DNA of 60,795 bases, from IMG/VR virus record IMGVR_UViG_3300032053_000075, positions 1 to 60,795 of that record; one strand, 5' to 3'. How positions within the stretch are numbered: position 1 is the first letter of the stretch; each line of letters begins with the position of its first letter. The position numbers and the translations under genes are program-made. Under the pieces are notes generated by a model that saw nothing but the letters and a program-made list of their open reading frames with translations, had not been told where the DNA came from and did no database searches. Origin of the DNA: a virus. This document shows, one piece after another, positions 1 through 13,608 of this stretch.

Positions 1-2
1 CA

Positions 3-182
3 CACCATCACGGAGGTTGGTCTTGTAACTTGTCAAGCCCGTACAGTTATATGAGTGATGGTAGTGGGATGACAAAGTTTTCAGCTTTGATACATGGCGC
101 GGATTTGATGTCCACACACATGTTTGGTAAGAAGGCTGAAAGTAAGGAACATAAGAAGGAAGTAAGGAAGGTGACACCATGA
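3..182 (+). CDS. 3' end of an unidentified gene (partial)
   Basis: An open frame runs in from the left edge and stops at TGA 180-182, overlapping the ATG of the next gene (ATGA). The 59 visible residues begin HHHGGWSCN and end in a Lys/Glu-rich tail. The overlap suggests co-transcription with the thioredoxin-like gene. No family is recognised from this fragment. Confidence 0.6.
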   Translation, partial: HHHGGWSCNLSSPYSYMSDGSGMTKFSALIHGADLMSTHMFGKKAESKEHKKEVRKVTP

Positions 183-517
183 GATTGTTGAAAGAGTTGC
201 AGTATGATGAGGTGATTCATGGTGAGGGTGTTGTGGCGGTGTTGTTTCATGCTGGATGGTGTGCCCCCTGCAATAGAATTCTTCCTCTGATAGAGAATTT
301 TGAAAAAGAGTTTCCTGCAATTCAATTCTGTAAAGTAAATGTAGAGGAGTATGAGGGTTTTTTTGAACAAGCCAAGCTACATAAGATTACAGCAGTACCT
401 ACATTGGTAATTTACAAAGAGGGTAGGCAAGTAGATAGGGTAATAGGTTATCACCCTGAAGAGTACATAAGGGAATGTTTGGCTGATGCTACGGTGGGGG
501 AAGGTAAGGGTAGATAG
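179..517 (+). CDS. Thioredoxin-like protein
   Basis: A 112-residue protein with the thioredoxin fold signature. The redox motif WCAPC is at residues 27-31, preceded by a hydrophobic strand, and the cis-proline is in TAVPTLV near residue 74. The length matches single-domain thioredoxins. Such proteins reduce protein disulfides in the cytosol; some phages use host thioredoxin as a polymerase processivity factor, but nothing here points to that. The ATG overlaps the stop of the previous gene. The active site WCAPC differs from the classic WCGPC, so its redox potential may differ. Confidence 0.9.
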   Translation: MRLLKELQYDEVIHGEGVVAVLFHAGWCAPCNRILPLIENFEKEFPAIQFCKVNVEEYEGFFEQAKLHKITAVPTLVIYKEGRQVDRVIGYHPEEYIRECLADATVGEGKGR

Positions 518-622
518 TTCTTTTAACTTTTCTTAAAAATATACTTGACGACTTACCCTATGGGGCCTGTTGGCGGGGGTCGTGAAAATGGTAGGGCGTC
601 TAGTGTCAAAAAATGTTGATTT

Positions 623-1006
623 TTGATAAAAACTACCGTCAATCAGATTACCGTCAATCAGATTACCGTCAATCAGATTACCGTTGATGTAGCGTTGATC
701 AGGTATCATAGGGGGGGTATTGTATGGGATGTAAGCGTGGGGGAAGTAGAGTATGCGAAGCGGGAGGCGTGTCACAGGTTTGACAAGTTGGTAGATGTAA
801 CGGGGTTTGTAGGGAGGCATACGGGGTATTACTATGAGATGTTGGGGTGTATAGAGGAGCCGTTGCCGGTGGAGGATTCAGATGATGTTATTTCAGATGT
901 AGAGGATGAGGATTTGGAGGGTGAGGATTTGGAGGGTGAGGATTTGGAGGGTGAGGATTTGGAGGATGTTATTAAGGAAGCTGATGGTGATGTAGACAAG
1001 AAGTAG
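623..1006 (+). CDS. Acidic hypothetical protein with repeats at both ends
   Basis: 127 codons from a TTG at 623. The N-terminal 20 residues are encoded by a 15-bp tandem repeat (TVNQI repeated). The middle (VEYAKREACHRFDKLVDV) looks like a normal folded segment, and the C-terminus is a repeated acidic pentapeptide (EDLEG). The start is uncertain: an ATG at 613 opens a different frame of 24 codons through the same repeat, and a G-rich stretch near 708-717 could be the ribosome site of a shorter protein. No family recognised. Confidence 0.5.
   Translation: MIKTTVNQITVNQITVNQITVDVALIRYHRGGIVWDVSVGEVEYAKREACHRFDKLVDVTGFVGRHTGYYYEMLGCIEEPLPVEDSDDVISDVEDEDLEGEDLEGEDLEGEDLEDVIKEADGDVDKK
635..684 (+). 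repeat. 15-bp tandem repeat, 3 copies plus 5 bp
   Basis: The unit ACCGTCAATCAGATT occurs at 635, 650 and 665, then decays after ACCGT. It lies at the extreme 5' end of the 623 gene. The length is a multiple of three, so copy number can change without a frameshift. Confidence 0.95.
908..967 (+). repeat. 15-bp tandem repeat, 4 copies
   Basis: The unit GAGGATTTGGAGGGT starts at 908, 923, 938 and 953 (the last copy slightly diverged) and encodes EDLEG repeats in the acidic tail of the 623 gene. Confidence 0.95.
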
Positions 1007-1169
1007 TAAGGGCAGTAATATGTGATGTAATGTAGGAAGATGGTGTAAGATCATTGGATATAGCTCAAAAATACGGGCAAAAACCACAAAAATAACCTCT
1101 GTAACCCATTGATGTTGTTGCTGTTTGCAGGAAATAGCAAGGATTACTTGCATTTTGATTAGAAATAAC

Positions 1170-1212
1170 TTGACTTTCCCGGCGAAATAGCGTATATTAT
1201 AGGTGTAAGACA
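1170..1212 (+). promoter_or_regulatory. Sigma70-type promoter with conserved downstream element
   Basis: TTGACT (1170-1175), a 17-bp spacer and TATATT (1193-1198) form a near-consensus promoter. The following bases AGGTGTAAGACA are repeated after an independent promoter at 2192, so the initial transcribed region appears conserved too. It would drive the genes from 1362 on. The rest of the 1007-1361 gap holds the 9-bp repeats listed next; the stretch 1007-1169 shows nothing else I can name. Confidence 0.8.
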
Positions 1213-1231
1213 GGGGAGAGAAAAAAGACAA

Positions 1232-1330
1232 GATAGGGTTGATAGGGTTGATAGGGTTGATAGGGTTGATAGGGTTGATAGGGTTGATAGGGTTGATAGG
1301 GTTGATAGGGTTGATAGGGTTGATAGGGTT
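1232..1330 (+). repeat. 9-bp tandem repeat, 11 copies
   Basis: Eleven perfect copies of GATAGGGTT lie between the 1170 promoter and the ribosome site of the 1362 gene, i.e. in the 5' leader of the transcript. A degenerate extension (AATGAGGTTGATT) follows. The array is non-coding on the + strand. Confidence 0.95.
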
Positions 1331-1361
1331 AATGAGGTTGATTAAACTAAGGAGGTAGAGA

Positions 1362-1550
1362 ATGAGCAAGAAAATCAATACATCAGAAAAAATCCGTGTC
1401 AGGGCTTGTTCGATAGAGTGTATTGATCACCCAGAGTGGGGAACGTGGGGCGTGATGGAAGACCGTGGCCTGTGGTTTGAGATTTTTGGTAAGAGCGGGG
1501 GACGTGTGTTGAGCAAGATGGAGGCAGACAAGTTTTGGAGGGTGCGGTAA
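1362..1550 (+). CDS. Small hypothetical protein
   Basis: 62 residues from an ATG with a strong AAGGAGG site 6 bases upstream. It is Trp-rich for its size (HPEWGTWGVMEDRGLWFEIF) and ends FWRVR, compatible with a small beta-rich fold. It is the first gene behind the 1170 promoter. No family recognised. Confidence 0.75.
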   Translation: MSKKINTSEKIRVRACSIECIDHPEWGTWGVMEDRGLWFEIFGKSGGRVLSKMEADKFWRVR

Positions 1551-1552
1551 GA

Positions 1553-1572
1553 CGGATTTTTCCAAAAATCCG
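1553..1572 (+). terminator. Perfect 9-bp palindromic hairpin between genes
   Basis: CGGATTTTT and AAAAATCCG are perfect complements separated by two bases, immediately after the 1362 gene's stop. There is no T-run after it, so it may be an RNA-processing or stability hairpin, or a bidirectional weak terminator. Confidence 0.5.
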
Positions 1573-1605
1573 GGTGAATAGAAACCTAAGACAGGAGATG
1601 CTGGT

Positions 1606-1755
1606 ATGGCAAAAGAAAAAGCCGTGATCTATCTGGATGATGTGCGAAGTTGCTGGAAGATTAAGACAAATGATGTGTGGATTGATGAGTTTGACAGTGA
1701 GGAAGAAGCAACTACCTATGCACTGAGAAACGGGTGCAAGGTCGAGGGGTGCTGA
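1606..1755 (+). CDS. Small hypothetical protein (49 aa)
   Basis: An ATG with an ACAGGAG site upstream opens 49 codons (starts MAKEKAVIYLDDV, ends CKVEGC). The stop at 1753-1755 directly abuts the next gene's ATG, typical of translational coupling. Function unknown. Confidence 0.65.
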   Translation: MAKEKAVIYLDDVRSCWKIKTNDVWIDEFDSEEEATTYALRNGCKVEGC

Positions 1756-1962
1756 ATGTTTGTTGAACATCAGATTGTAAAGACAAAGGATTTTATAGAG
1801 GTTGATGGAAGTCTTCTTCCAAAACAATCACGAGGGGCAGTTATTTCTATTCCTTGTGTTGGAGTGTATGTAGTTGAGTTCCCAACTTATTGGAAGACTA
1901 TTGAAGAAGAGGGCAAGCCGGTAATAGTTACGCTTTGTGAAGACGTAATTGAGGAGTGCTGA
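1756..1962 (+). CDS. Small hypothetical protein (68 aa)
   Basis: Begins at the base after the previous stop. Alternating hydrophobic residues (VISIPCVGVYVVEFP) suggest a beta-rich small domain. No family recognised. Confidence 0.65.
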   Translation: MFVEHQIVKTKDFIEVDGSLLPKQSRGAVISIPCVGVYVVEFPTYWKTIEEEGKPVIVTLCEDVIEEC

Positions 1963-1985
1963 AATTTTAGAGAAAGGCAGGTAAG

Positions 1986-2165
1986 ATGGACCCGTTTGTG
2001 AAGGAATGTCTGGATATGTTAGTAGTGAATGGTGAATGTGCGACGGCATGGAAGGTCTTGAGTTGGTGCCAAGCAACAATTCCTGATAGTGAGTATGACA
2101 GGTATAAGAGGATGATAATTGATCTGTCGGGTGTAGAGGCAACTGATACTGATAGGGTGTTGTAG
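1986..2165 (+). CDS. Small hypothetical protein (59 aa)
   Basis: ATG at 1986 preceded by AGGCAGG. The sequence MDPFVKECLDMLVVNGE followed by WKVLSWCQATIPDSEY looks helical. It is the last gene before the second promoter. Function unknown. Confidence 0.6.
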   Translation: MDPFVKECLDMLVVNGECATAWKVLSWCQATIPDSEYDRYKRMIIDLSGVEATDTDRVL

Positions 2166-2191
2166 CTTCGTAGATTTAATTTATTTTTCTG

Positions 2192-2234
2192 TTGACTTTG
2201 CTGATGATGTTTGGTATATTAGAGGTGTAAGACA
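2192..2234 (+). promoter_or_regulatory. Second sigma70-type promoter of the same family
   Basis: TTGACT (2192-2197), 17 bp, TATATT (2215-2220), then AGAGGTGTAAGACA. Hexamers, spacing and the downstream GGTGTAAGACA are all shared with the promoter at 1170. It serves the gene at 2319 and those after it. Confidence 0.8.
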
Positions 2235-2318
2235 AGATTTTTGATTTTGATGTTGTAGTAGTATAGTGGCACAGACCACACATAAACCGGGGCAAAGACC
2301 CCCAAAGGAGTACCGAGT

Positions 2319-2621
2319 ATGAAACCTGTATCAATGACTGAGATTATTGACCGCAAGAAGTACAGCACTGAATCTGCTACGTTGATTGCCGGGAATGATT
2401 ATTGGGACGGCCACAACTACGAACGTCACGGGCGGCAGACTTTCCTGTATCGTACATCCAAGGGTGGATACTTCGCGGTGCATCTGACGCAATGGCAGGG
2501 CGAACAGGACCGCATAGAGCCGTTGTGTGTAGATGAGGCGGTGACGTTCTGGGAAAATCTGACCGAGCGGCGCGTAGAATTTGTTGAGGCATTTCCTGGA
2601 GTTGAAGTTACGGATGCGTGA
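2319..2621 (+). CDS. Hypothetical phage/bacterial protein (100 aa)
   Basis: The layout (IDRKKYSTESATLIA near the N-terminus, then FLYRTSKGGYFAVHLTQW, then a helix around DEAVTFWENL) matches a widespread small protein type in phages and plasmids: a KYxTETAtLIa opening, a YrTkkGgyFl strand and a C-terminal AxxWle helix. That family has no known role. AAAGGAG lies before the ATG. G+C is higher here than in neighbouring genes. Confidence 0.75.
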   Translation: MKPVSMTEIIDRKKYSTESATLIAGNDYWDGHNYERHGRQTFLYRTSKGGYFAVHLTQWQGEQDRIEPLCVDEAVTFWENLTERRVEFVEAFPGVEVTDA

Positions 2622-2649
2622 TGGTATATGAGTAGGATGGGGTGTAAGT

Positions 2650-2997
2650 ATGATTTTCAAATTCAGGTATGTGAAGCCTGATTTGTCTGAGTGGCTTGAG
2701 TATGAAGGTACATCTGAGGTTGATGCAATACAATCACACCAGCTTCAATGGAGGACAGGATACCGGGTAAAACTGGACGTAGGGCATTTTGTGTATTTTG
2801 CACTGGTAGAAGGTGCATCGGGGGAGAAGTTTATTTCGAGGGTATTTAAGCATGGGTTGGAAAGACGTGGGGGTGTGCGGTACAGGCAAGATCAATACCC
2901 TTGGGGATACGAGGAAGCGGCTGAGGCGTTGGGTGTGGAGGAAAGTGAGTTGAGGTCTGAGGATGGATGGGAGCAGGATGAGAAGGATTATCATTGA
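2650..2997 (+). CDS. Hypothetical protein (115 aa)
   Basis: Starts MIFKFRYVKPDLSEWLEYEG, with an aromatic-rich N-terminal half and a charged C-terminus (EESELRSEDGWEQDEKDYH). No recognised motif. Standard spacing in the accessory operon. Confidence 0.65.
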   Translation: MIFKFRYVKPDLSEWLEYEGTSEVDAIQSHQLQWRTGYRVKLDVGHFVYFALVEGASGEKFISRVFKHGLERRGGVRYRQDQYPWGYEEAAEALGVEESELRSEDGWEQDEKDYH

Positions 2998-3040
2998 CAT
3001 ATAGGATGCTGTAAGTAAAACCAATGAAAGGCAGGGTTGT

Positions 3041-3298
3041 ATGAGCCGGATGACAAAAGAAGAGGCACTGTCTGTTATTACAACTTTGATTGAGCATCAC
3101 GCGCCAAACCCTATGTTGGAAGAGGCAAAATGTGTGATGCTTGAGTTGGTAGAAGACAAAGAGAATACCCTGAAACATCTACGAGATGAAATTGCCGCTT
3201 ACATGAATGAGCTTTCTGGTATTTATGAAAATGAGAGTGAAATTTTTATACCTTATGTAGTTAATAAGCTGCGGCAACTGTTAGCCGTTTCGTTGTAG
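3041..3298 (+). CDS. Hypothetical helical protein (85 aa)
   Basis: ATG after AAGGCAGG. The sequence is predicted helical throughout (MTKEEALSVITTLIEHH and later EDKENTLKHLRDEIAAY). Function unknown. Confidence 0.65.
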   Translation: MSRMTKEEALSVITTLIEHHAPNPMLEEAKCVMLELVEDKENTLKHLRDEIAAYMNELSGIYENESEIFIPYVVNKLRQLLAVSL

Positions 3299-3308
3299 TG
3301 TATAAAGT

Positions 3309-3482
3309 ATGATTGAAAAACGTAAAATAGGTTGGGAGGACGTGTCTTGTCCTGCTGGTCAGGGGTATAGAATAATGACGCGGGACGGGATCAAGGTTTT
3401 TGATTTGAGTGAGCGAGAAGAGTTTGAGGCTGAAAGGCGTGAAGTAGCTGAGTATTTATCTAAAAGTAAGATAAAAGGCTGA
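3309..3482 (+). CDS. Small hypothetical protein (57 aa)
   Basis: An ATG 10 bases after the previous stop opens 57 codons (MIEKRKIGWEDVSCPAG, then IMTRDGIKVFDLSEREEFE). The second half looks like one charged helix. Function unknown. Confidence 0.55.
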   Translation: MIEKRKIGWEDVSCPAGQGYRIMTRDGIKVFDLSEREEFEAERREVAEYLSKSKIKG

Positions 3483-3487
3483 TAGGT

Positions 3488-3670
3488 ATGGCTGAGTGTT
3501 TGCCGGGACAGTCAAAGGATACCAGAATTGAGAGTCTTGAACTTCAGGTTGATCAGCTTCTTAGGGATAATGCTGACTATAGAGTTTGGGTAGTGACCCA
3601 CAGGTGTCCTAAGTGTGACCATCTTGTAAAGAACGGGTACTGCTGTCATCATTGTCATTATGGTGGGTAG
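3488..3670 (+). CDS. Small zinc-ribbon protein (60 aa)
   Basis: An N-terminal coiled stretch (RIESLELQVDQLLRDN) followed by a compact zinc ribbon, CPKC then CCHHCH, at the C-terminus. It overlaps no other gene in frame. One of many tiny Cys-rich proteins in this phage; function unknown. Confidence 0.65.
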   Translation: MAECLPGQSKDTRIESLELQVDQLLRDNADYRVWVVTHRCPKCDHLVKNGYCCHHCHYGG

Positions 3671-3692
3671 TGTTTTATTTTGTGAGGTTGAA

Positions 3693-3911
3693 ATGTGGGA
3701 AGGTTTAATTAACGATAGAGACAAGAAGAAGTTACTTCCATGTCCTTTTTGTGGCGGGAAAGCGTATATAGATTGGGAGTCGATACAGAATGATGTAGGG
3801 AATGAGCAGGTTGTGAAGTGTAGTGGATGTGGGGTTGTTATGCATTATCCTGCCTTGACGCAATGGAATAAGAGAGTTGAATTGAAAGAGGTTTGTGGTG
3901 CGGGGCATTGA
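3693..3911 (+). CDS. Lar-like restriction-alleviation family zinc protein
   Basis: The pattern LLPCPFCGG, then VKCSGCG and finally TQWNKRV is the signature of the Lar family. The founding member from the Rac prophage alleviates type I restriction, but most phage members are untested. ATG 3693 is preferred over an in-frame start at 3660 because GAGG lies 5 bases upstream and the upstream start would overlap the previous gene. A second member is at 7236. Confidence 0.8.
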   Translation: MWEGLINDRDKKKLLPCPFCGGKAYIDWESIQNDVGNEQVVKCSGCGVVMHYPALTQWNKRVELKEVCGAGH

Positions 3912-4182
3912 TGTTGTTGTAAATTCGCGTGTGTATCTCAGGGATAACACTTGGTTACTCGGAATTGCAAAAAGACTTACAAGTGAGAATGAGAGTGAGA
4001 GTAAGGATAATAAGCGTAATGGTACTTCGGATGCGGTTGCTTGGTTAAGAAAAGAGATTGACAGGTTACAACAGAGGGTTACTTGGTTAGAGGTTGATAA
4101 TGCAAGTAAGTTTCGGGAAGTAAAGGAATTAAGGAGAGAAAAAGAGAAATGTCTACGGTTTGAGAGTGCGTTATTGAGGTAG
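3895..4182 (+). CDS. Hypothetical coiled-coil protein
   Basis: GTG at 3895 or 3898 follows AAAGAGG and overlaps the end of the Lar-like gene. The C-terminal half is strongly coiled-coil (AWLRKEIDRLQQRVTWLEV onward). The stop TAG (4180-4182) ends on the G of the first GTTG junction of the cassette array, so the array begins exactly at this gene's end. Confidence 0.55.
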   Translation: MVRGIDVVVNSRVYLRDNTWLLGIAKRLTSENESESKDNKRNGTSDAVAWLRKEIDRLQQRVTWLEVDNASKFREVKELRREKEKCLRFESALLR

Positions 4183-4233
4183 TTGTTTGCAATTGCCGTG
4201 CGACCATATTATAGGCGCGGCGGAAAGGAATGT

Positions 4234-4497
4234 ATGCGAGATAAATTGATTTCTGCGGCTATCCGCAATATGCGTGAGTTTGGATATCCTTATGTCAACG
4301 CCGAAAACATTATCACCGACCAAGTGTATTCTATGCTTTTCGACAGTATGTTAAAGGACAACCTTGGTCACGGCGTTGACAAAGCTATTGAATCGTTACG
4401 TAGCGAAATCGCCGCCGCGCAGAAAGCAGTTGAGCGCACGGCAACAACAAACAACAGCGCAAAGCCAAAACCGCGTAAGCGTAGCAAGGGGGCGTAG
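4234..4497 (+). CDS. Cassette 1 ORF, hypothetical
   Basis: 87 residues from ATG 4234, chosen because GGAAAGGA lies just upstream. Helical (MRDKLISAAIRNMREFGYPY) with a basic Lys/Pro-rich tail. The tail is encoded by the 5' arm of the attC-like site. Function unknown. Confidence 0.65.
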   Translation: MRDKLISAAIRNMREFGYPYVNAENIITDQVYSMLFDSMLKDNLGHGVDKAIESLRSEIAAAQKAVERTATTNNSAKPKPRKRSKGA

Positions 4498-4526
4498 CGG
4501 CTTCGGCTGTTGCGCAAACGTTGGTG
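4449..4526 (+). repeat. attC-like site 1
   Basis: R'' AAACAAC (4449-4455), L'' GCGCAAAGCC (4457-4466), L' GGCTGTTGCGC (4505-4515), R' GTTGGTG (4520-4526). L'' and L' pair with one extra C on the 3' arm. Confidence 0.75.
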
Positions 4527-4560
4527 GAAATAAACCTTTCTTTGGAATTGTAGGTGCGGC

Positions 4561-4773
4561 ATGGAAATGACATTTGAGCAGTGGTGGAGCAACGTTGGCG
4601 GCGGCGGAGATATGGAGAAGTATAGCAACGTCTGGAATGCCGCACAGAACGCTATGGTGGAAAGATTTACATCCACCAACAAAGCAAGTACGCAATGCTC
4701 TCTGTATGCGAGCTGCAAGTATCCTATCAAAAGTTGTTGCTGTACCGGAGTTCCGATTTGTCACAAGCAGTAG
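4561..4773 (+). CDS. Cassette 2 ORF, TFxxWW family
   Basis: 70 residues. The N-terminus MEMTFEQWWSN and the later NVWNAAQNAMVERF parallel cassette 7 (KTFREWW, then IGWSAANRVVV), so the array carries two diverged relatives. Similar TFexWw small proteins are common, unassigned phage proteins. The Cys-rich C-terminus lies inside the attC-like loop. Confidence 0.6.
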   Translation: MEMTFEQWWSNVGGGGDMEKYSNVWNAAQNAMVERFTSTNKASTQCSLYASCKYPIKSCCCTGVPICHKQ

Positions 4774-4801
4774 CACTGCGTACATTGCTCGGACGTTGGG
4801 A
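4674..4801 (+). repeat. attC-like site 2
   Basis: R'' CACCAAC (4674-4680), L'' AGCAAGTACGCAATGC (4683-4698), L' GCACTGCGTACATTGCT (4773-4789), spacer CGGAC, R' GTTGGGA (4795-4801). The 16-17 bp arms pair with one bulged T and one G.T-type mismatch, the longest pairing in the array. Confidence 0.8.
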
Positions 4802-4840
4802 TGCCATAGTTGACAAGTCGATATGCCGAGGAGGCGCAAA

Positions 4841-5065
4841 ATGAATGATAGCGTATTGCTCAACGGGTGGTGTCAGCACGGCATACCGGCAGGTTCGTGC
4901 GATCGCTGCGCCTCCAAACCGGAGGAATTGTCAACAACGGCACCCAACAGCGCTATAGATGCCATTGCTCTCGTGCGCAAACTGGCATTGTCTTCTTCTC
5001 GGTCTGATGCGCAAAAAATGAGGTTTTGTGATTTTCTGCGTGAGATCGAGCAACGGAACCAGTAG
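4841..5065 (+). CDS. Cassette 3 ORF, small Cys-containing protein
   Basis: 74 residues from ATG 4841, with GAGGAGG about 7 bases upstream (an in-frame ATG at 4823 lacks this). It contains CQHGIPAGSCDRC, a possible metal site, followed by a helical C-terminus. The APNS residues are encoded by R'' of the attC-like site. Confidence 0.65.
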   Translation: MNDSVLLNGWCQHGIPAGSCDRCASKPEELSTTAPNSAIDAIALVRKLALSSSRSDAQKMRFCDFLREIEQRNQ

Positions 5066-5080
5066 CGCGGATCGTTGGGA
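4942..5080 (+). repeat. attC-like site 3
   Basis: R'' ACCCAAC (4942-4948), L'' GCGCTA (4950-4955), L' TAGCGC (5063-5068), spacer GGATC, R' GTTGGGA (5074-5080). CCCAAC/GTTGGG and GCGCTA/TAGCGC are perfect complements. Confidence 0.8.
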
Positions 5081-5337
5081 TGCCATTCATTCGCTTGGAG
5101 GTTATAGGTGGCCACAAAAAACTTGATTGCATTAAGCGAGATGTATGCATAGTTCGGGACAGCAACTATTCTTTGTGCAGCGACTGTGGCCACTATCTGG
5201 CGGATGCTCATTCCACGGCACCCAACAGCGCTATTACGCCATGCGGAGAGTGCGTTTTTGTGCGGACCAAATCTCCGCGTTGTTCGGAGTGCTACCGTAA
5301 TAAGGTTGACAAGTGGTTGTCACGCACGTCGCAATAG
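5080..5337 (+). CDS. Cassette 4 ORF, zinc-ribbon protein
   Basis: Up to 85 residues. Cys pairs in CSDCGHY and in CGEC...CSEC suggest zinc binding. The only in-frame ATG (5080) lies on the junction itself without a good ribosome site, while TTGGAGG at 5095-5101 has no normal start codon at the right distance in this frame, so the true start is unclear. Confidence 0.5.
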   Translation: MPFIRLEVIGGHKKLDCIKRDVCIVRDSNYSLCSDCGHYLADAHSTAPNSAITPCGECVFVRTKSPRCSECYRNKVDKWLSRTSQ

Positions 5338-5352
5338 AGCAAAACGTTGTAT
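5220..5352 (+). repeat. attC-like site 4
   Basis: R'' ACCCAAC (5220-5226), L'' GCGCTATT (5228-5235), L' AATAGAGC (5333-5340), spacer AAAAC, R' GTTGTAT (5346-5352). Seven of eight L positions pair. Confidence 0.75.
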
Positions 5353-5389
5353 GCAATTTTTTGCGCTTTCAAATTATAGGAGGTTGGCT

Positions 5390-5614
5390 ATGTGGTACAA
5401 AAAAGGTGAAGGTGTTGTCCCGGATTACGATGGCCCGATATTAGTTCATTTTGACAACGGCAGTATCGAGACTATTCACGCACAGGATTTTATTGCTGGC
5501 CATTGCGAGTATAATTGCAAAATAACGCATTGGATGCTCGTTCCATCCCCGCCAACCTCTGAAAGCAGCGGTGGCGCAAAAAACAGCACACAACAGGCAA
5601 ATGCCAAAATGTGA
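5390..5614 (+). CDS. Cassette 5 ORF, DUF551-like
   Basis: 74 residues from ATG 5390 after ATAGGAGG. It ends with the ITHWMLVPSPP motif typical of DUF551, a small phage protein domain of unknown role. A second DUF551-like protein is at 10556 outside the array. Confidence 0.75.
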   Translation: MWYKKGEGVVPDYDGPILVHFDNGSIETIHAQDFIAGHCEYNCKITHWMLVPSPPTSESSGGAKNSTQQANAKM

Positions 5615-5647
5615 TGCACACTTCGGCAATTTGCCGGAACGTTGTTT
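5588..5647 (+). repeat. attC-like site 5 (shortest clear site, 60 bp)
   Basis: R'' ACACAAC (5588-5594), L'' GGCAAATGCC (5596-5605), a small TGTG/CACA stem-loop, L' GGCAATTTGCC (5625-5635), spacer GGAAC, R' GTTGTTT (5641-5647). L arms pair perfectly except one extra T, matching the extrahelical-base layout of attC. Its 60-bp length equals that of classical short attC sites. Confidence 0.85.
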
Positions 5648-5683
5648 GCAATTTCGCTCTAAAATTTATTATAGGAGTATGCC

Positions 5684-5899
5684 ATGACGCCAATCGAGGC
5701 TATTGATGCTATCGAGAAAAATTGTGCTATACATGTAGGTAATGTCGTTCTTGCGGATGAAGCATGGCAAACTCTGAAAACCGCTGTACTCGCTCAACAG
5801 ACAACCAACAGCAAAAGTGCGCCATGTCCGAACTGTGGTGAGCGTGCAGGGCGGTATTCGCTCGGCGAAGCGTGTATGGTGTGCCACTATAATCTGTAG
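5684..5899 (+). CDS. Cassette 6 ORF, zinc-ribbon protein
   Basis: 71 residues from an ATG after TATAGGAG. The helical N-terminus (MTPIEAIDAIEKNCAI) is followed by a C-terminal zinc ribbon, CPNCGE then CMVCHYN. Function unknown. Confidence 0.7.
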   Translation: MTPIEAIDAIEKNCAIHVGNVVLADEAWQTLKTAVLAQQTTNSKSAPCPNCGERAGRYSLGEACMVCHYNL

Positions 5900-5928
5900 C
5901 ACGGCGCACGTTTCGCAAGACGTTGGGA
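5803..5928 (+). repeat. attC-like site 6
   Basis: R'' AACCAAC (5803-5809), L'' GCAAAAGTGCGCC (5811-5823), L' GGCGCACGTTTCGC (5903-5916), spacer AAGAC, R' GTTGGGA (5922-5928). The arms pair over 12 positions with a single shifted base. Confidence 0.8.
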
Positions 5929-5955
5929 TGCCAGTTTGTCAACTTTGGAGGTGAT

Positions 5956-6192
5956 ATGGCCGCGAAGACATTCCGTGAGTGGTGGAAGACGCAAGGGCCT
6001 GGTGATTATCAGATAGATATGGTGAGTGCGGAGATCGGTTGGAGCGCGGCCAACCGCGTGGTGGTTGACAAACCGGCACCCAACACCGCAAGGGCCGAAA
6101 TTTGCCCTCATTATTTTGAGGACACCGATGGCATACATGTGGTCGTGGTAGGCCAGTGTAATTGTAGGGGCAAACTATCGCCCATTGCGTAG
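5956..6192 (+). CDS. Cassette 7 ORF, TFxxWW family
   Basis: 78 residues from ATG 5956 after TTTGGAGG. KTFREWWKTQGPGDYQ and a following WSAANR helix relate it to cassette 2. The C-terminal third overlaps the attC-like site. Function unknown. Confidence 0.65.
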   Translation: MAAKTFREWWKTQGPGDYQIDMVSAEIGWSAANRVVVDKPAPNTARAEICPHYFEDTDGIHVVVVGQCNCRGKLSPIA

Positions 6193-6201
6193 ACGTTGTA
6201 C
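6078..6201 (+). repeat. attC-like site 7
   Basis: R'' ACCCAAC (6078-6084), L'' CGCAAGGG (6087-6094), L' CCCATTGCG (6181-6189), spacer TAGAC, R' GTTGTAC (6195-6201). The arms pair with one extra T. Confidence 0.75.
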
Positions 6202-6251
6202 AAAATGGCGCAAAGCCTGAATTTATAGGCCGCGCCGGAAAGTAGAAGTTT

Positions 6252-6455
6252 ATGTGGAGAGGTTTCATTATTGAAAGTAAATCGTTCTGTAACTATCCGT
6301 ATTGCGGTAAGTGGCATTTCTGGTCAGGATTCCCGCGTGCATTCATAGTTTATCATTGGTACACGCTGTTGGATAAGGCGTGGCGGACACTGCGGAATTT
6401 GCGCCACTTCGTACAACAGCTAAAGCCCAAAACACGGCTTGACACTATAGGTTGA
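6252..6455 (+). CDS. Cassette 8 ORF, hypothetical aromatic-rich protein
   Basis: 67 residues from an ATG after GGAAAG. Rich in Trp, Phe and Tyr (SFCNYPYCGKWHFWSGF), with a possible CNYPYC metal pair. Last ORF of the array. Confidence 0.6.
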   Translation: MWRGFIIESKSFCNYPYCGKWHFWSGFPRAFIVYHWYTLLDKAWRTLRNLRHFVQQLKPKTRLDTIG

Positions 6456-6457
6456 GA
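6411..6457 (+). repeat. Possible terminal attC-like site 8 (weak)
   Basis: R'' GTACAAC (6411-6417), AAGCC/GGCTT pairing, and GTTGAGA (6451-6457). The L arms are shorter and the spacer does not follow the rule of the other seven sites, so this end is uncertain. Confidence 0.4.
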
Positions 6458-6474
6458 AATAATGGAGGAAGAAT

Positions 6475-6693
6475 ATGCAGGAGTATCTTGATGCTGTAGA
6501 TAAGGAAATTGAGTGGTGTAAAGCTAATATGGCCCCAAAGGGTATTGATCAGGACTCTTTCATTAAAGGTCTTGAGCAGGCAAAGTTTTTCATTCGTGAG
6601 GTTAGCAAGGCTAAGAGTCCTCTAAAAAGAAATTATTGGTACATGTTTGATAATCATACTTTGAAGCATTGCCAACAGACCCCGAAAAGTTGA
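6475..6693 (+). CDS. Hypothetical helical protein
   Basis: 72 residues from an ATG after GGAGGAAG. Helical N-terminus (MQEYLDAVDKEIEWCKANM). The last 15 codons may be frameshifted: the frame that continues in the next ORF reads EALPTDPEKLIKRVMELF across the same DNA. Confidence 0.6.
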   Translation: MQEYLDAVDKEIEWCKANMAPKGIDQDSFIKGLEQAKFFIREVSKAKSPLKRNYWYMFDNHTLKHCQQTPKS

Positions 6694-6704
6694 TTAAGAG
6701 AGTC

Positions 6705-6842
6705 ATGGAATTATTTGACGTTGACCCGTGGGGAGTGGTTTTTATTAACGGGACAGATGTTGCTTGTGGAAGAGGTAAAGATAAAAAAGAGGAATTCGTA
6801 GCTGCACTTGAGCGTTGGAGGAGAATGCTGTTAGATGCCTAA
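6705..6842 (+). CDS. Small hypothetical protein (45 aa)
   Basis: MELFDVDPWGVVFINGTD followed by a charged helix ending RWRRMLLDA. Its stop overlaps the next gene's start. The open frame extends upstream to 6654 without an ATG, so it could be the C-terminal part of a gene fused with 6475 by a frameshift. Confidence 0.5.
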   Translation: MELFDVDPWGVVFINGTDVACGRGKDKKEEFVAALERWRRMLLDA

Positions 6843-7077
6843 GCAGGAGTTTGAACGTCGCTATTTGCACATGAAAGCGGTGAGGTATACTCAGTGTGAG
6901 GTGAATGGTGTTCCTATACCAAAAGGTGAAAAGTATGGGGAGTTGCACATACCAAAGAAGATAAAACAGATAACAGAGTTTGATGGTAAGAAGTTCTGGC
7001 CGATATTTCGTTCTAAAGGATATAACTCAGTGTCTTATGTAAACTGCTTGTGTGCCTTTGAGAGAGAAAGAACGTAG
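6835..7077 (+). CDS. Hypothetical protein (80 aa)
   Basis: ATG overlaps the previous stop by 8 bases, with TTGGAGGAG upstream. Basic, beta-like sequence (CEVNGVPIPKGEKYGELHIP). No family recognised. Confidence 0.65.
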   Translation: MPKQEFERRYLHMKAVRYTQCEVNGVPIPKGEKYGELHIPKKIKQITEFDGKKFWPIFRSKGYNSVSYVNCLCAFERERT

Positions 7078-7080
7078 TAT

Positions 7081-7239
7081 ATGGGGTACGAGGATGACGA
7101 GAATTTTCTTCATGGGGCAGGTAAAGAGCCTGATATAAGAGAGAATGAAGACCAGGATGATGGTAGGTTAGAACATGAGAAGTGGAAGGTAGATCCTGAC
7201 ACAGAGAATCATGGTTATGTGTGGAAGGAGTTTCAATGA
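7081..7239 (+). CDS. Small acidic hypothetical protein (52 aa)
   Basis: Three bases after the previous stop an ATG opens 52 codons, very acidic (MGYEDDENFLHG, later ENEDQDDGRLEHEKW). Its stop overlaps the next ATG. Function unknown. Confidence 0.55.
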   Translation: MGYEDDENFLHGAGKEPDIRENEDQDDGRLEHEKWKVDPDTENHGYVWKEFQ

Positions 7240-7661
7240 GTGTTAAGACAGACCATCCAGTAGAGGGGTTACTGCCTTGTCCTTTTTGTGGCGGTACTCC
7301 TGAGATGTACGAGGAGCTTGACGATCTTGGTGATTTTCGAGTGCAGTGTGATTGTGGAGCTACGTGTGGTGGGTTGGTTTACTCTGAGAAGGAAGCGGTA
7401 GAGTATTGGAATAGAAGAGTTCGTTTAGTAGTTTCACCTTCACTTGTTTCTGATGTTGAAGCTGTTGTTAAGACAAAGATTTTTGATATGCAAAAGCAGA
7501 TTAACTATTCTGAGTATGAGTTACCAGAGAAGTTTTATGTTAAGTTCAAAGCTAAGTGGGTAGAACTTAAAGATGCTGTAGACCATCTTTTGCGTCTTTT
7601 TGTAGTTGTTGCTGACAGAGAGACAATGGATGATTTGTTGAAGGTAGTGGGTGAGAAATGA
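7236..7661 (+). CDS. Lar-like zinc-ribbon protein with helical extension
   Basis: LLPCPFCGG, then VQCDCGATCGG and EYWNRRV reproduce the Lar-family core at residues 10-60. An 80-residue helical C-terminal extension follows that the gene at 3693 lacks. Start 7236 is chosen because AAGGAG sits 6 bases upstream and gives the usual overlap with the preceding stop. An anti-restriction role is possible from the family but unproven. Confidence 0.75.
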   Translation: MSVKTDHPVEGLLPCPFCGGTPEMYEELDDLGDFRVQCDCGATCGGLVYSEKEAVEYWNRRVRLVVSPSLVSDVEAVVKTKIFDMQKQINYSEYELPEKFYVKFKAKWVELKDAVDHLLRLFVVVADRETMDDLLKVVGEK

Positions 7662-7945
7662 CTACAAACGCGCCACGATCCTTACCGTCACCAGAGAAAT
7701 TGGAGCGAATGAAGAAAGTTCCGGCACCTCCTCCACCACCTCCAGTTCGTCCAAGAGGTGAGATCATAGTGGAAGGAGAGGTGTGTGCGAAGCCAAAGAA
7801 GACTTGTCAGTGGATATACGACTCTACAACAGACTCTTATGATACTGAGTGTGGGGATAAGTGGTGTTTTTCTGAAGGTACAGCAACAGATAACGGTGTA
7901 AAATTCTGTCCTATGTGCGGAAAGCAGAGAGTGGGATCAAAGTAA
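7658..7945 (+). CDS. Proline-rich zinc-ribbon protein
   Basis: ATGA overlap with the preceding gene. The N-terminus has a polyproline run (residues 23-30). The C-terminal half carries CGDKWCF and a CPMCGK knuckle, a pattern common in phage Cys-rich proteins. Function unknown. Confidence 0.65.
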   Translation: MTTNAPRSLPSPEKLERMKKVPAPPPPPPVRPRGEIIVEGEVCAKPKKTCQWIYDSTTDSYDTECGDKWCFSEGTATDNGVKFCPMCGKQRVGSK

Positions 7946-7955
7946 GGGGATTTCT

Positions 7956-8210
7956 ATGATAGAAGTACGATTTGATCTTAATTGTGGTGCTTTAACGTGC
8001 GCCAGTGAGTCTAATAAGTTTTGTAAATTTTTTGGAACTAAGACTTTTGGACAGGTTCCTGTGTGCCGACTTTTCCCTTCTGAAGAAAAATCTTACACCG
8101 AGTTGAGGCAGTTAAATGGGTGGTCAATAAGATGTGACGCTTGTTTGGATGCTGAGAAAGATGTAGAGGATTTTAAGTTATGTAATGTTCTGTCTTGTGG
8201 TGTAAGGTAG
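7956..8210 (+). CDS. Cys-rich hypothetical protein
   Basis: 84 residues with nine Cys spread as C-x(4)-C, C-x(6)-C, C-x2-C and C-x(5)-C, suggesting more than one metal site. Preceded by AAGGGG. Function unknown. Confidence 0.6.
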   Translation: MIEVRFDLNCGALTCASESNKFCKFFGTKTFGQVPVCRLFPSEEKSYTELRQLNGWSIRCDACLDAEKDVEDFKLCNVLSCGVR

Positions 8211-8219
8211 AGTTGTGTT

Positions 8220-8459
8220 ATGTCAAGGATTGATGAGATAGTAAGTAAAGGACATAAGTACATAGACAAGTATTACACAGAAGAAACCAAAATACAGAGC
8301 AAAAGACGATATACTTCTATGAGGCGGTGTCAGTGGGAAGGGTGTACTGTTGAATTTCGTGTTGTACGAAGGAAGAAATATTGCCTTGACCATTCGTTGA
8401 TGAAGCCAGATAAGAATAAGGAAGGAAAGAACGGTGGTTATAGGAACGAAAATATCTAA
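8220..8459 (+). CDS. Small basic zinc-finger-like protein
   Basis: 79 residues with CQWEGCTVEFRVVRRKKYC then H, a C2CH-type arrangement, on a basic background. This could bind nucleic acid. Function unknown. Confidence 0.6.
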   Translation: MSRIDEIVSKGHKYIDKYYTEETKIQSKRRYTSMRRCQWEGCTVEFRVVRRKKYCLDHSLMKPDKNKEGKNGGYRNENI

Positions 8460-8721
8460 GAACTATGCTTGGGAGCTTGCGTTTTTCTATGTTATTCGTA
8501 AGTTTAAGGATGGGATCAATTTTGTAAACTTTGAATCTCAGATTGATCTTTACAAAAGTGACCATAATCCTCATATATCCGCACGTTTGATTGTCCTGAA
8601 TGTTCTTGTCTTCGAGTTTGGTATCTATAACGTCAATCATGTTGATAAGCCAGACACAAGAGAGTTTGTGGTTCAATGTCCTAAGTGTAATGGTAACTTG
8701 AGCGTAAGAGTGGAGAAGTAA
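8434..8721 (+). CDS. Hypothetical protein with C-terminal zinc knuckle
   Basis: GTG start after GGAAAGAAC, overlapping the previous gene. Hydrophobic beta-rich centre (ARLIVLNVLVFEFGIY) and a terminal CPKCNG. Only half a zinc ribbon is present, so it may dimerise around the metal or pair with another protein. Confidence 0.55.
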   Translation: MVIGTKISKNYAWELAFFYVIRKFKDGINFVNFESQIDLYKSDHNPHISARLIVLNVLVFEFGIYNVNHVDKPDTREFVVQCPKCNGNLSVRVEK

Positions 8722-8723
8722 TT

Positions 8724-8924
8724 ATGCCTGACAATACTTTCAAGTGTTGTGTCTGCGGAGGTACTTTTGAAAAAGCGTGGTCTGACGAAGAGGCGATTGC
8801 CGAGATGAAGCAAGAATTTGATAAGCCTGTAGAGGAGTGTGACGTGGTGTGTGATGATTGTTATGAGAAGTTAATGCAGGGTAAGCAAGAGAAGATGAAG
8901 GTGTTACTTTCAGAAATCAATTAA
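8724..8924 (+). CDS. Small zinc-ribbon protein
   Basis: 66 residues; FKCCVCGG and CDVVCDDCYEKL form a C4 ribbon around a helix. The spacing resembles phage proteins that pair CxxCG with CxxCy. Function unknown. Confidence 0.7.
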   Translation: MPDNTFKCCVCGGTFEKAWSDEEAIAEMKQEFDKPVEECDVVCDDCYEKLMQGKQEKMKVLLSEIN

Positions 8925-8939
8925 ACACAGGAGAAACTT

Positions 8940-9692
8940 ATGGCAGTAAAAGCTCTTCTTAGAGATATGTATGAAGACGATGTTAAGGATAATGAGATTA
9001 AAGAGAGCATAAACGATGCGAACTTGTTCAAGTGTGTGTTTATGGCGGGGGGACCGGGCAGTGGCAAGAGCTTCTACTCTAAGAAAATGTTTGCTGGATT
9101 TGCTAATTTTGTAAATTCTGATGTTGTATTTGAGAGAAACTTGAAAAAAGAGAATCTTCCGTTTGACATAGACCCTTCAAACAAAGAGATTCATGCAAAG
9201 CAGTTGTCAGCAAGGGAGGCTGCGAAGCGTCTTACTGATACTCGTATGGGTTATTGGGTGAATGGTATGTTACCTTTGGTGATTGACGGTACTGGTAAGG
9301 ATTTAGCGAAGATTACAAAGCAGAAAGAGACTATGGAGAGGATAGGGTATGATACATACATGGTTTTTGTAAATACCTCTTTGGAGGTAGCTATTGAGCG
9401 TAATGAAGAAAGGGAGAGAAGTGTTCCAGAGGATTTTGTAAAACAGGCATGGAATCAGGTTCAGGGAAATATAGGAGGATTTCAGACGTTGTTTGGAGGG
9501 GAAAACTTTTTGATTGTAGATAATAGTAAGAAATTGGATGGTAAAGAGCAGCAGAGGGTTGATATAGAGATGACTAAGGTTGCTTTCAAGTTTATAAAGT
9601 CACCCTTGAGAAACGTAATAGGAAAGAGGATACTTGAGTTGCTTGCTAAGAGTGGGAAGCTGTATTTGTCGGATATTGCTGGAATGGTATAG
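8940..9692 (+). CDS. P-loop kinase (zeta toxin / polynucleotide kinase-like) with head-type N-terminal tag
   Basis: 250 residues. Walker A GGPGSGKS is at residues 37-44 after a hydrophobic strand, followed by PLVIDGTGKDL and MVFVNTSLEVAIERNEER, the layout of zeta-toxin/PNK-type AAA-like kinases that phosphorylate nucleotides or nucleic-acid ends. Before the kinase domain the protein carries ALLRDMYEDD, the same short peptide found in the putative head proteins at 24745-32876. By comparison with those it may be packaged in the virion; this is inference. Start supported by AGGAGA. Confidence 0.75.
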   Translation: MAVKALLRDMYEDDVKDNEIKESINDANLFKCVFMAGGPGSGKSFYSKKMFAGFANFVNSDVVFERNLKKENLPFDIDPSNKEIHAKQLSAREAAKRLTDTRMGYWVNGMLPLVIDGTGKDLAKITKQKETMERIGYDTYMVFVNTSLEVAIERNEERERSVPEDFVKQAWNQVQGNIGGFQTLFGGENFLIVDNSKKLDGKEQQRVDIEMTKVAFKFIKSPLRNVIGKRILELLAKSGKLYLSDIAGMV

Positions 9693-9707
9693 TGATTGGA
9701 GGAGAGT

Positions 9708-10162
9708 ATGAGAATAAGTTTGTCTGATTGTATAGTTGATGTTGCACGTTGGCTTGTTTTTTCATGGAAGAACAGAGATAAGGGACAGGAAGTTATAGAG
9801 AAGAAAGTAAGTGATGTGGAATTGTCTTCTTTTTTGAATACGGTAAATCTTGTGCGGCCTTCACCCGTTAATCAGCGGGATCAGAGAGAGCAACAAGAGA
9901 AAATTGTCGGGGATGTAGTTTCTTTGACGCAGATTATCAATTCGGATCTTACGACGGATAGTGACTTGGTAAGGGAGTTGATCTTACGACGGATAGTGAC
10001 TTGGTAAGGGAGTTGAGTTTACACATGATAAGACTTATGACAATGTACTTTAATTTGACAGGGGAGAAGTTAAAGGTAGATTTGTTAGAAAGAACGCTTA
10101 CTTACGAGTTCCCTGATGGAACTAAGAGTTGTTGTTCTACGAAAACTGAAAAAAGAAAGTAG
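9708..10162 (+). pseudogene. Hypothetical gene frameshifted by a 35-bp tandem duplication
   Basis: ATG 9708 follows GGAGGAG. The frame stops at 10007, within the second copy of a 35-bp duplication. If one copy is removed, the original frame continues ELSLHMIRLMTMYFNLTGEK to a TAG at 10160-10162, giving a 139-residue protein. 35 is not a multiple of three, so the duplication is the cause of the break. The truncated product would be 99 residues. Function unknown; starts MRISLSDCIVDVARWLVFSW. Confidence 0.75.
9945..10014 (+). repeat. Perfect 35-bp tandem duplication
   Basis: Copies at 9945-9979 and 9980-10014, beginning GATCTTACGACGG and ending GGGAGTT, are identical, so the event is recent or an assembly artefact. 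Confidence 0.95.
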
Positions 10163-10165
10163 TGT

Positions 10166-10266
10166 AGCCCGTAGGGTTTGATCTACTGGAAGCCGGTTGC
10201 CGTAAGGTTCTGGTACGAGTTTAGTGGGGACTCGTTTTTCCTTCCAGTTATCCTACGGGCTTTTTT
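10166..10266 (+). ncRNA. Multi-stem structured RNA ending in an intrinsic terminator
   Basis: The outer stem AGCCCGTAGG (10166-10175) pairs perfectly with CCTACGGGCT (10252-10261) and is followed by a T-run. Inside it ACTGGAAG (10185-10192) pairs with CTTCCAGT (10241-10248). That second stem encloses two hairpins: CCGG...CTGG with a GTAA (GNRA-type) loop, and ACGAGT/ACTCGT (10215-10235) with a 9-base loop. A plain terminator needs only the outer stem, so the nested three-way-junction layout suggests a discrete RNA or a structured leader for the gene at 10285. Family unknown. Confidence 0.7.
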
Positions 10267-10284
10267 AATTACAGGAGGTGTCTA

Positions 10285-10551
10285 TTGAGGATTATCGTTG
10301 ACGTTGCTGAAGATTTGATTGATCATTGGGGATCTTTCTTACTTACCCCGGATATTTCAGACCCAAAGGATAAGAAGTGTGATGTGGCTCTTGTAGGGTT
10401 TAAGTACAGGGTTCCTAAAGATCCAGAGAATCATTATACATTTGTTGTAAGGTCATTTCACGACAACGAAGTTCCACCTGAGTATGCTTTAAGTAGTAAA
10501 GATGCTTCTTCGACTTTGAAGTTTCATAAAAGCAAGAGAGGTAGGAAGTAA
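10285..10551 (+). CDS. Hypothetical protein (88 aa)
   Basis: A TTG start after ACAGGAGG, immediately downstream of the structured RNA. Beta-rich (VALVGFKYRVPKDPENHYTF) with a basic Lys/Arg C-terminus. No family recognised. Confidence 0.6.
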   Translation: MRIIVDVAEDLIDHWGSFLLTPDISDPKDKKCDVALVGFKYRVPKDPENHYTFVVRSFHDNEVPPEYALSSKDASSTLKFHKSKRGRK

Positions 10552-10555
10552 GATT

Positions 10556-10780
10556 ATGCATACGTGGATAAAGGTAGAGGGTTGGTTGCCAGATGATAAT
10601 GTGTGGGTACTTGGATTATGTGAGGTTGGACTTCCAGAACACCGACAGAAGGTTGTTTTTCAGGTCAAGTATCAAAAAGAGGTTGGGTGGTCGGATTGGT
10701 GCGGGGACCGCGAAGACGATTCTTCATGGAAGGTCACGCATTGGATGTCTATTCCATCAACCATAGATTTCCATACATGA
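10556..10780 (+). CDS. DUF551-like protein
   Basis: 74 residues beginning WIKVEGWLPDDNVWVL and ending VTHWMSIPS, the two hallmarks of DUF551 (W-x-LP...V, then THWMxLP). Small phage protein of unknown function, related to cassette 5. Ends in an ATGA overlap with the next gene. Confidence 0.8.
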   Translation: MHTWIKVEGWLPDDNVWVLGLCEVGLPEHRQKVVFQVKYQKEVGWSDWCGDREDDSSWKVTHWMSIPSTIDFHT

Positions 10781-11358
10781 TCAATATTTTTTACAACCTG
10801 TATGTTGATCCTGACCCTGTTCGTGACGCAGAGTTGGTTTATTCTTACCAACAAACTCAGGTTGGTCTTCCAGATATTGCTTCAATACAGTTGATAGACG
10901 GAAGACCTACTTTTAGGGAGTATTTTGACTTGATAAAAGAGGTTTCTCTCCCAAACGATATAAATGTAATAATAAATTCAGATTGCTGGCTTGAACACAG
11001 TTCTTTGCCTTACATTTTTAACATCACTTATGATGAGGTTTGGTGTGTTTCGAGAAGGGATGTTTTGAGTGTTGTTCCATTTATTGCTGGTGATATTATG
11101 ACGGACAGGCAGGATTGTTGGATTTTCAGAGGGAATTTTTTGAAGGATGAGAAGAATTTGTTTTGTGACTTTACTCAAGGGATATTTGGGTGTGATCTAA
11201 GACTTGCTTATGAGTTTGTAAAGGTCGGGTATACTGTAAAGAACCCTTGTGATAAAGTGCTGTTGTATCATTACCATTTGTCGAACCTACGAAGATATTC
11301 TTTGATAGGACCGGAAAGAATACCCGCACCTTACCACAGGATTCCGTACATACGATGA
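10777..11358 (+). CDS. Glycosyltransferase-like protein
   Basis: 193 residues from ATG 10777 (ATGA overlap; an upstream in-frame ATG would bury most of the DUF551 gene). INIFYNLYVDPDPVRDAELV at the start and NDINVIINSDCWLE around residues 75-90 match the Rossmann-like half of small phage GT-A-type proteins. The next gene is a clear glycosyltransferase, supporting a pair that modifies a surface or DNA sugar. Acceptor unknown. Confidence 0.5.
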   Translation: MINIFYNLYVDPDPVRDAELVYSYQQTQVGLPDIASIQLIDGRPTFREYFDLIKEVSLPNDINVIINSDCWLEHSSLPYIFNITYDEVWCVSRRDVLSVVPFIAGDIMTDRQDCWIFRGNFLKDEKNLFCDFTQGIFGCDLRLAYEFVKVGYTVKNPCDKVLLYHYHLSNLRRYSLIGPERIPAPYHRIPYIR

Positions 11359-12011
11359 AAATTGCTGTTTTGACGATGCATACACATGAGATTAGTGATT
11401 ACGCATTGCAGACTCTTGGGAATAAGTTTGAGTATTGTGAAAGGAATAAATATAAACTAATATCTGTCGGTAGTAGTGTAGTTACCGATAGACCTTTGGT
11501 TTGGAGTAAAATACGACTTATACAAACTTATACCCCAATATACGATGGTATAGTGTGGATTGACGCTGATGCGGTGATTGTTGATATGGGTATGAGGTTG
11601 GAGCAGTTTTTTGAAAATGATTTTGTTATTACAAGAGATCGTGATAGTAGAGTAAGGGCTGATAATGGCAGTGTTAATGCAGGGGTTTTCTTTGTAAAGA
11701 GTTGTTCTTGGTCAGAGTCTTTTTTGAGGGATGTTTATGGGAAGGTTGGTTATTCTGATCCATGTAAGTTAAGATGTCCGGGTTGTTCTTACTTACATGA
11801 TGGCTGTGAGCAGAGAGCCATAGACTTTTTTTGTAATCAAGAAGAAAATAAGAGTCATGTTTGTGTGTGGAAGAACGATATTTTTAATAAACATTCAAGG
11901 GATTATGATGGTGATGTTTTGGATAATGCTTTCATAATTCATCCTTACGGGATACAAGGAGAAGCCAAGAAGGAGTTGTTAGAGAAGTTTCTTGGACTTG
12001 TCAAAAGGTAA
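11355..12011 (+). CDS. GT-A glycosyltransferase (GMA12/MNN10-like)
   Basis: 218 residues. A Rossmann start (MKIAVLTMHTHEI) leads to WSKIRLIQTY and the metal-binding DADA within IVWIDADAVIVDM at residues 67-77. NAGVFFVKSCSWS and a CEQRAIDFF segment follow; these are typical of the family that transfers galactosyl-type residues from UDP-sugars. ATGA overlap with the preceding gene indicates a joint role. Confidence 0.8.
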   Translation: MKIAVLTMHTHEISDYALQTLGNKFEYCERNKYKLISVGSSVVTDRPLVWSKIRLIQTYTPIYDGIVWIDADAVIVDMGMRLEQFFENDFVITRDRDSRVRADNGSVNAGVFFVKSCSWSESFLRDVYGKVGYSDPCKLRCPGCSYLHDGCEQRAIDFFCNQEENKSHVCVWKNDIFNKHSRDYDGDVLDNAFIIHPYGIQGEAKKELLEKFLGLVKR

Positions 12012-12022
12012 CAGGAGGATTT

Positions 12023-12859: not shown

Positions 12860-13065
12860 CATCGACTGCGTGTTTTTGTGACGAGTTTTGTGGTTATGTG
12901 TCACCTGAAGAGAGTGGCAGAGAGAGGTTTCCAAAGAACAAGAGTCTTCATATTTGTTTGAAATATGGTAAGCCTGTAAGTCACGGAACATACTACCCTA
13001 AATTGGTAAGATTACCGGAGTGCTCTTATGTATGTCAAAAAACTGAGAAGGAGGTGGTCTCTTGA
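12856..13065 (+). CDS. Small Cys-rich protein
   Basis: ATGA overlap with the lipase gene. Cys cluster CFCDEFCGY at the N-terminus, a lone C in the middle and CSYVC at the end, likely a zinc site. Function unknown. Confidence 0.55.
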   Translation: MTSTACFCDEFCGYVSPEESGRERFPKNKSLHICLKYGKPVSHGTYYPKLVRLPECSYVCQKTEKEVVS

Positions 13066-13423: not shown

Positions 13424-13428
13424 TACTT

Positions 13429-13508
13429 GCGGGTGTGATGGAATTGGTAGACATCTCAGATTCAAAATCTGATGCGAAAGCGTGGGGGTTCGAGTCCCTT
13501 CACCCGTA
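13429..13508 (+). tRNA. tRNA-Leu (CAA)
   Basis: Acceptor arm GCGGGTG/CACCCGT, D-loop TTGGTAGA, anticodon stem TCAGA/TCTGA with loop TTCAAAA (anticodon CAA, codon UUG), a short variable arm and T-loop GTTCGAGTC. CCA is not encoded. A long-looking ORF over this tRNA pair is a shadow. Confidence 0.92.
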
Positions 13509-13513
13509 TTTTT

Positions 13514-13601: not shown

Positions 13602-13608
13602 TTTACTT

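Follow-up and report, generated by a model that had tools for sequence, protein, structure and literature searches.

What a perfect array of short repeats is doing in the presumed 5' leader of a viral gene, whether serving as a control site or merely surviving there as the trace of a copying slip, is the question raised by a stretch of 60,795 bases, a linear IMG/VR record that was analysed whole and is called the window here. It represents part of the genome of a phage whose portal is T4-like (portal ORF to Pfam model Portal_T4, 2.8e-39). Portal relatives were found by tblastn in 13 records of a phage collection, all below 60% identity, and the same collection returned no DNA relative to megablast with window 1-20000 or to blastn with window 1000-4000. 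The features around the array are as follows.

1170-1198, + strand: predicted sigma-70-type promoter, TTGACT-17-TATATT, 10/12 in a consensus scan; kept in the sister phage introduced below (L005 from 7168)
1199-1231, + strand: conserved first part of the leader (ATAGGTGTAAGACAGGGGAGAGAAAAAAGACAA), from the sister comparison
1232-1330, + strand: 9-bp array, 11 perfect head-to-tail GATAGGGTT units
1331-1348, + strand: two degenerate units, AATGAGGTT (1331-1339) and GATTAAACT (1340-1348), partly within the Tandem Repeats Finder call
1349-1356, + strand: predicted ribosome-binding site AAGGAGGT, kept in the sister
1362-1550, + strand: P0001, putative ORF of 62 aa, with homologues at L002, L003 and L004

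An earlier, sequence-only reading had reported eleven perfect 9-bp repeats at 1232-1330, lying between a promoter and a ribosome site. The count and register are exact: the window contains 11 copies of GATAGGGTT, all on the + strand, in register, and inside the array. Dinucleotide-preserving shuffles never produced 11 copies (0 of 100; mean 0.62, largest 4). When window 1-4000 was base-shuffled 300 times, no 9-mer formed a perfect tandem run longer than two copies. Tandem Repeats Finder carries the array on to 1342, with 12.3 copies and 96% matches, because the degenerate units AATGAGGTT and GATTAAACT adjoin it on the 3' side. Three exact tandem copies of the unit (27 bases), used as a query, matched no viral contig.

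The placement between promoter and ribosome site also holds, as far as sequence can say (TTGACT-17-TATATT at 1170-1198, AAGGAGGT from 1349, ATG at 1362). The consensus match alone is weak evidence for the promoter, since window 1-6000 contains 14 promoter-like sites where 10.8 are expected. Better evidence is that the 43 bases starting at 1170 have a second copy at 2192, 77% identical, and that both are kept in the sister. Transcription would be driven from the predicted promoter at 1170-1198 and presumably start near 1205. No terminator-like hairpin was found on the + strand from 1152 to 1977, and window 1-4000 has no match to a known RNA family at E values up to 1. Of the three reading frames through the array, one meets a stop codon in each unit, another stays open but without a start codon, and the third contains TTG codons only. 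This last frame, running from TTG at 1239 to TAG at 1356-1358, is the only one with a possible start; considered as a leader peptide, it was rejected, having no supported ribosome site and following from the repeat sequence itself.

The array was compared with its counterpart in a sister phage, contig IMGVR_UViG_3300031772_000001 (167,660 bp), found through P0002 (96%). The two are 99.43% identical over window 2126-7169, 99.50% over 7170-27136, 96.87% over 27137-47153, and 99.96% over 47097-54756; beyond 54756, identity is 92.7% up to 60359. At the left end, identity is 88% over 1-1244, followed by 1245-2125 with no DNA match, so that the array marks the edge of a locally replaced segment. The sister contig breaks at either end in a 63-bp repeat of a tail-like ORF, and window 47027-47257 bridges the two ends; the sister genome is therefore circular or circularly permuted. 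In a more distant relative, G005 (156,609 bp; portal 84%), P0002 was unmatched, as was the promoter pattern at up to 2 mismatches, and tblastn matched 3 of 11 window proteins, P0001 and thioredoxin not among them.

Aligned with the sister's first 62 bases, window 1170-1231 is identical at 59 of them, and the promoter, the leader start and the ribosome site are all kept in the sister. From TTGAC to just past the ORF start, however, there are 195 bases in the window and 96 in the sister, a difference of exactly 99, or 11 units; the -10 box lies 163 nt from the start codon in the window and 64 nt in the sister. In the array's place the sister has only GATAGAGTT GATAAGACT, two degenerate copies, the second of which, read from the sequences, is the counterpart of the window's second degenerate unit, GATTAAACT. 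The slippage part of the earlier suggestion of a slippage-tunable leader is thereby supported, in that close relatives differ by whole units (11 units, 99 bp), the pattern that slippage would produce, although the copy-number comparison at this array covers two genomes only, the window and one sister.

We consider it probable that the array is a strain-specific minisatellite (variable-number tandem repeat), expanded by slippage or recombination and tolerated in the leader; it looks like a copying slip, not a conserved control site. The reading fits the whole-unit difference at an orthologous leader, the degenerate units at the array's edge and in the sister, and the other length-variable arrays described below, and the 11 perfect units have the near-identical head-to-tail order of the class. 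Two 9-bp units similar to each other would originally have lain in the purine-rich spacer between the conserved leader start and the ribosome site, where the sister still shows its two copies. Replication slippage or unequal recombination would then have added 11 units in the window lineage, taking the spacing from 64 to 163 nt, and the array would persist in a tolerant leader while the conserved transcript start and ribosome site do the work. We infer slippage as the mechanism of growth, near-neutrality of the array, and gain in the window lineage rather than loss in the sister; loss is possible, but so many perfect copies fit a recent gain better.

The sequence-only reading had also proposed that the repeats bind a protein, either as a regulator sponge or as a replication iteron-like site, and perfect repeats of a single period in a noncoding region would suit such a role. 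The sister, however, lacks the array although its promoter and leader are the same, which makes a needed binding array unlikely. The motif is not dispersed: every one of its 11 occurrences in the window belongs to the array, and the sister shows 2 isolated occurrences, compared with 1 for a reversed control pattern. The three distant loci with P0001 homologues likewise have no array in front of that gene. An iteron would be conserved along with an origin and an initiator gene, whereas this array is absent at the same place in the sister. GC skew shows no switch, being positive in 15 of 15 windows here and in 34 of 34 for the sister; as most genes are on the same strand, it is not informative. 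On these sequence comparisons a sponge or an iteron would be ruled out by the absence of the array in the sister and the lack of dispersed copies, and we regard either as most improbable.

Repeats are frequent points at which metagenome contigs break or collapse. At its right end the window stops inside a 12-bp array, and the sister contig stops in one of 63 bp, as might be expected if short-read assembly had distorted the 1232 array or its copy number. Yet unique sequence lies on both sides of this array, the sister differs by whole units, and two degenerate units follow on the 3' side that do not occur in that form in the sister; an assembly distortion thus seems extremely unlikely.

If the array is a minisatellite, other arrays may show how common such length changes are between the two phages. 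Fifteen window arrays with a score of 50 or more, overlapping rows merged, were compared. Six had equal lengths (9945, 24864, 25234, 46064, 48609, 49190), among them one perfect array, 9945-10016. Six differed (634 by 15 bp, 902 by 45, 1232 by 99, 60137, 60271, 60657 by 9), with the lengths at 60137 and 60271 unreliable in a region that is repeat upon repeat, and three (47027, 60099, 60697) gave no verdict. Two of those that differ lie just upstream of the leader.

634-684, + strand: 15-bp array TACCGTCAATCAGAT, 3.4 copies; 2.4 in the sister
902-965, + strand: 15-bp array GAGGGTGAGGATTTG, 4.3 copies; sister 45 bp shorter, with a left flank only 77% identical

All six differing arrays sit in more diverged segments (1-1244 at 88%; beyond 54.8 kb at 92-93%), so that time or recombination, beside instability, may explain their lengths. 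One exception to this link was seen, a 9-bp array CACCTCCTC that measures 52 bp in the sister and 19 bp in the window between flanks 100% and 98.6% identical. The six arrays of equal length, and the confinement of the differing ones to diverged segments, count against the minisatellite reading, as does its reliance on two genomes for the copy-number difference. The last ORF of the window (60099-60795) is dense with 18-, 12- and 9-bp arrays, the sister's differ, and the window end falls in one of them. A 9-bp array of another sequence, CCATACCCA, occurs with 8.6 copies at 2926-3002 of L004, an unrelated viral contig.

The gene behind the leader, P0001, has no match in Pfam, PHROGs or the phage collection. 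Its AlphaFold2 model, from 3 sequences, has a mean pLDDT of 85.2, with two of the five models near 57. Distant homologues occur at three loci of viral contigs, two of them alike. A tandem repeat search found no array in L002 or L003 and two in L004, neither of them 5' of the P0001 homologue, and the absence of an upstream array at all three loci favors a strain-specific minisatellite. The ORF that follows the same leader in the sister is different from P0001. By eye, 18 bases inside P0001 (window 1401-1418) recur with one mismatch at L005 7466-7483, behind the sister's ORF, and this match may be a remnant of P0001.

That difference between the genes matters for another proposal, the slippage-tunable leader, in which copy number would adjust expression of the downstream gene by degrees, whether by way of leader length, the stability of the RNA or access for the ribosome, with variability kept by selection. 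The array is well placed for this between promoter and ribosome site, leader length does change (163 against 64 nt), and the sister has repeats of unrelated sequence in other leaders of this promoter family. Because the gene after the leader differs between window and sister, though, there is no conserved target being tuned. Nor can a 9-bp unit shift the reading frame: a phase-variable switch would have a unit that is not a multiple of 3 inside a translated leader, so an on/off switch by frame change is excluded, and any effect on expression would be graded. The predicted fold of the leader (1205-1400; -25.7 kcal/mol) is not unusual: its z is -1.79, its stability is equalled or exceeded by 10 of 200 shuffles, and its centroid is nearly unpaired; the sister leader gives -7.8 and a z of -0.63. 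The predicted array stem, at about 1237-1343, leaves the ribosome site outside, part of that site lying in a separate weak hairpin. On balance, we think a tunable leader rather unlikely.

Another candidate is a G-quadruplex, in the non-template DNA strand or in the mRNA, that would modulate transcription or translation. The array's eleven GGG tracts, separated by 6-nt loops (TTGATA), match the G3+N1-7 pattern and supply the four or more G3 tracts with short loops that such a structure takes. The G4Hunter score, however, is a borderline 1.11 for the array and 1.2 for its best 25-nt window, a level of at least 1.2 being reached by 589 windows on the + strand. The pattern is also missing from the orthologous sister leader, with its single GGG run, whereas the window's other four pattern clusters have sister counterparts. 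We judge a functional quadruplex very unlikely. For the C-rich strand of the array, no fold was predicted.

The minisatellite reading leaves a modest question, which is why leaders of this promoter family carry repeats. The family has a second member in the window.

2192-2234, + strand: another promoter of this family, sharing the transcript start (AGGTGTAAGACA); kept in the sister; leader without a tandem array

Directly 5' of the ribosome site of this next promoter-family gene, at 2287-2305, is a GGGGCAAAGACCCC hairpin, also kept in the sister. The pattern TTGAC-N18-TATATTANAGGTGTAAGA with at most 1 mismatch occurs at 2 sites in the window and 5 in the sister, where a sixth site has 4 mismatches; block-shuffling the sister five times yielded 0, 0, 0, 1 and 0 sites at 4 or fewer mismatches. 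Three of the six sister leaders overlap a tandem array (score 40). Two of these, which are paralogous, share the 11-bp units GAGACAGGGGA and GAGACGGGAAA but in the orders A-B-B and A-A-B, a difference that again favors a minisatellite, and the third has a 16-bp unit; the repeats of these leaders are unrelated in sequence to the window's array. At least three of six leaders with an array arose in 36 of 20,000 random placements, and in 262 of 20,000 when placements started in noncoding gaps as left by a crude calling of genes (ORFs of 40 aa or more). This excess over neutral placement counts against simple tolerance, although it is weaker evidence than those numbers suggest because two of the three leaders are paralogues. 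One might speculate that leaders with TTGAC-N18-TATATTANAGGTGTAAG are recurrent birthplaces of differing repeats (9, 11 and 16 bp, an AGGG-type core being present in most), enclosed by a transcript start and a ribosome site that are both fixed, and that these repeats serve as an evolvable spacer or as standby sites governing how strongly small early-type genes are expressed, with strains differing in expression by repeat number; we give this idea little credence. Exact matches to TTGAC-N18-TATATTANAGGTGTAAG, which includes the transcript start, occur in 6 other viral contigs (L020-L024, L027) and 8 bacterial ones (L028-L035), raw counts from which we draw no conclusion; at least four of the bacterial contigs are alike in their leaders.

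The nearest published parallel is the tandem repeats of Borgs (PLoS Biol 2023, PMC9879509). Those repeats are perfect and head-to-tail, scattered in genes and intergenic regions, and flanked by partial repeats; they differ between close relatives, some being present in one only, and the intergenic ones are proposed to be regulatory RNA. The array shares the perfect head-to-tail units, the partial-repeat flanks and the differences between close relatives. Borgs, however, are archaeal elements, whereas the array belongs to a phage with a T4-like portal and sits in the leader of a recognisable promoter with a degenerate seed visible in the sister genome. The pil1 operon leader of Streptococcus gallolyticus (PLoS Pathog 2014, PMC3894217) likewise has repeats between promoter and first gene; these are 5-bp units (GCAGA) that belong to a leader peptide gene, where a change of frame shifts the position of the stop codon with respect to a terminator hairpin. 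The array differs in its 9-bp unit, in having no supported leader peptide, and in having no terminator-like hairpin found on the + strand at 1152-1977. For nadA, porA and hifA/hifB, a review (PMC3899988) describes noncoding repeats near the promoter whose copy number can alter expression; these change promoter spacing or binding sites, whereas the array sits downstream of the -10 box. Searches of the open PMC library brought up nothing that we recognised as a description of tandem arrays in a phage mRNA leader.

We thus take the array to be an ordinary but clean case of a known kind, a two-allele leader minisatellite in a phage, with the same promoter and ribosome site accompanied or not by 99 bp of repeats. 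If copy number affected expression, phages would possess a repeat-based dial of a kind known in bacteria. If it does not, the locus shows the tolerance of phage leaders and cautions against taking such arrays for binding sites before a sister genome has been compared.

Several other features of the window were observed in passing. At about 711-743, two G runs each have one base more than their sister counterparts, and the second shifts the frame of the sister's ORF (MGCKRGEVEYAK...) in the window, representing either a frameshift or a sequence error. Three ORFs match Pfam Intein_splicing (14839-17364, 17654-20887 and 54495-58238), one of them, whose insert has an HNH match, within the T4-like portal and one beside AAA ATPase matches. 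The ORF at 30519-31619 has a Cas12f1-like TNB domain, which we take to be of the kind known from transposon-associated TnpB proteins.
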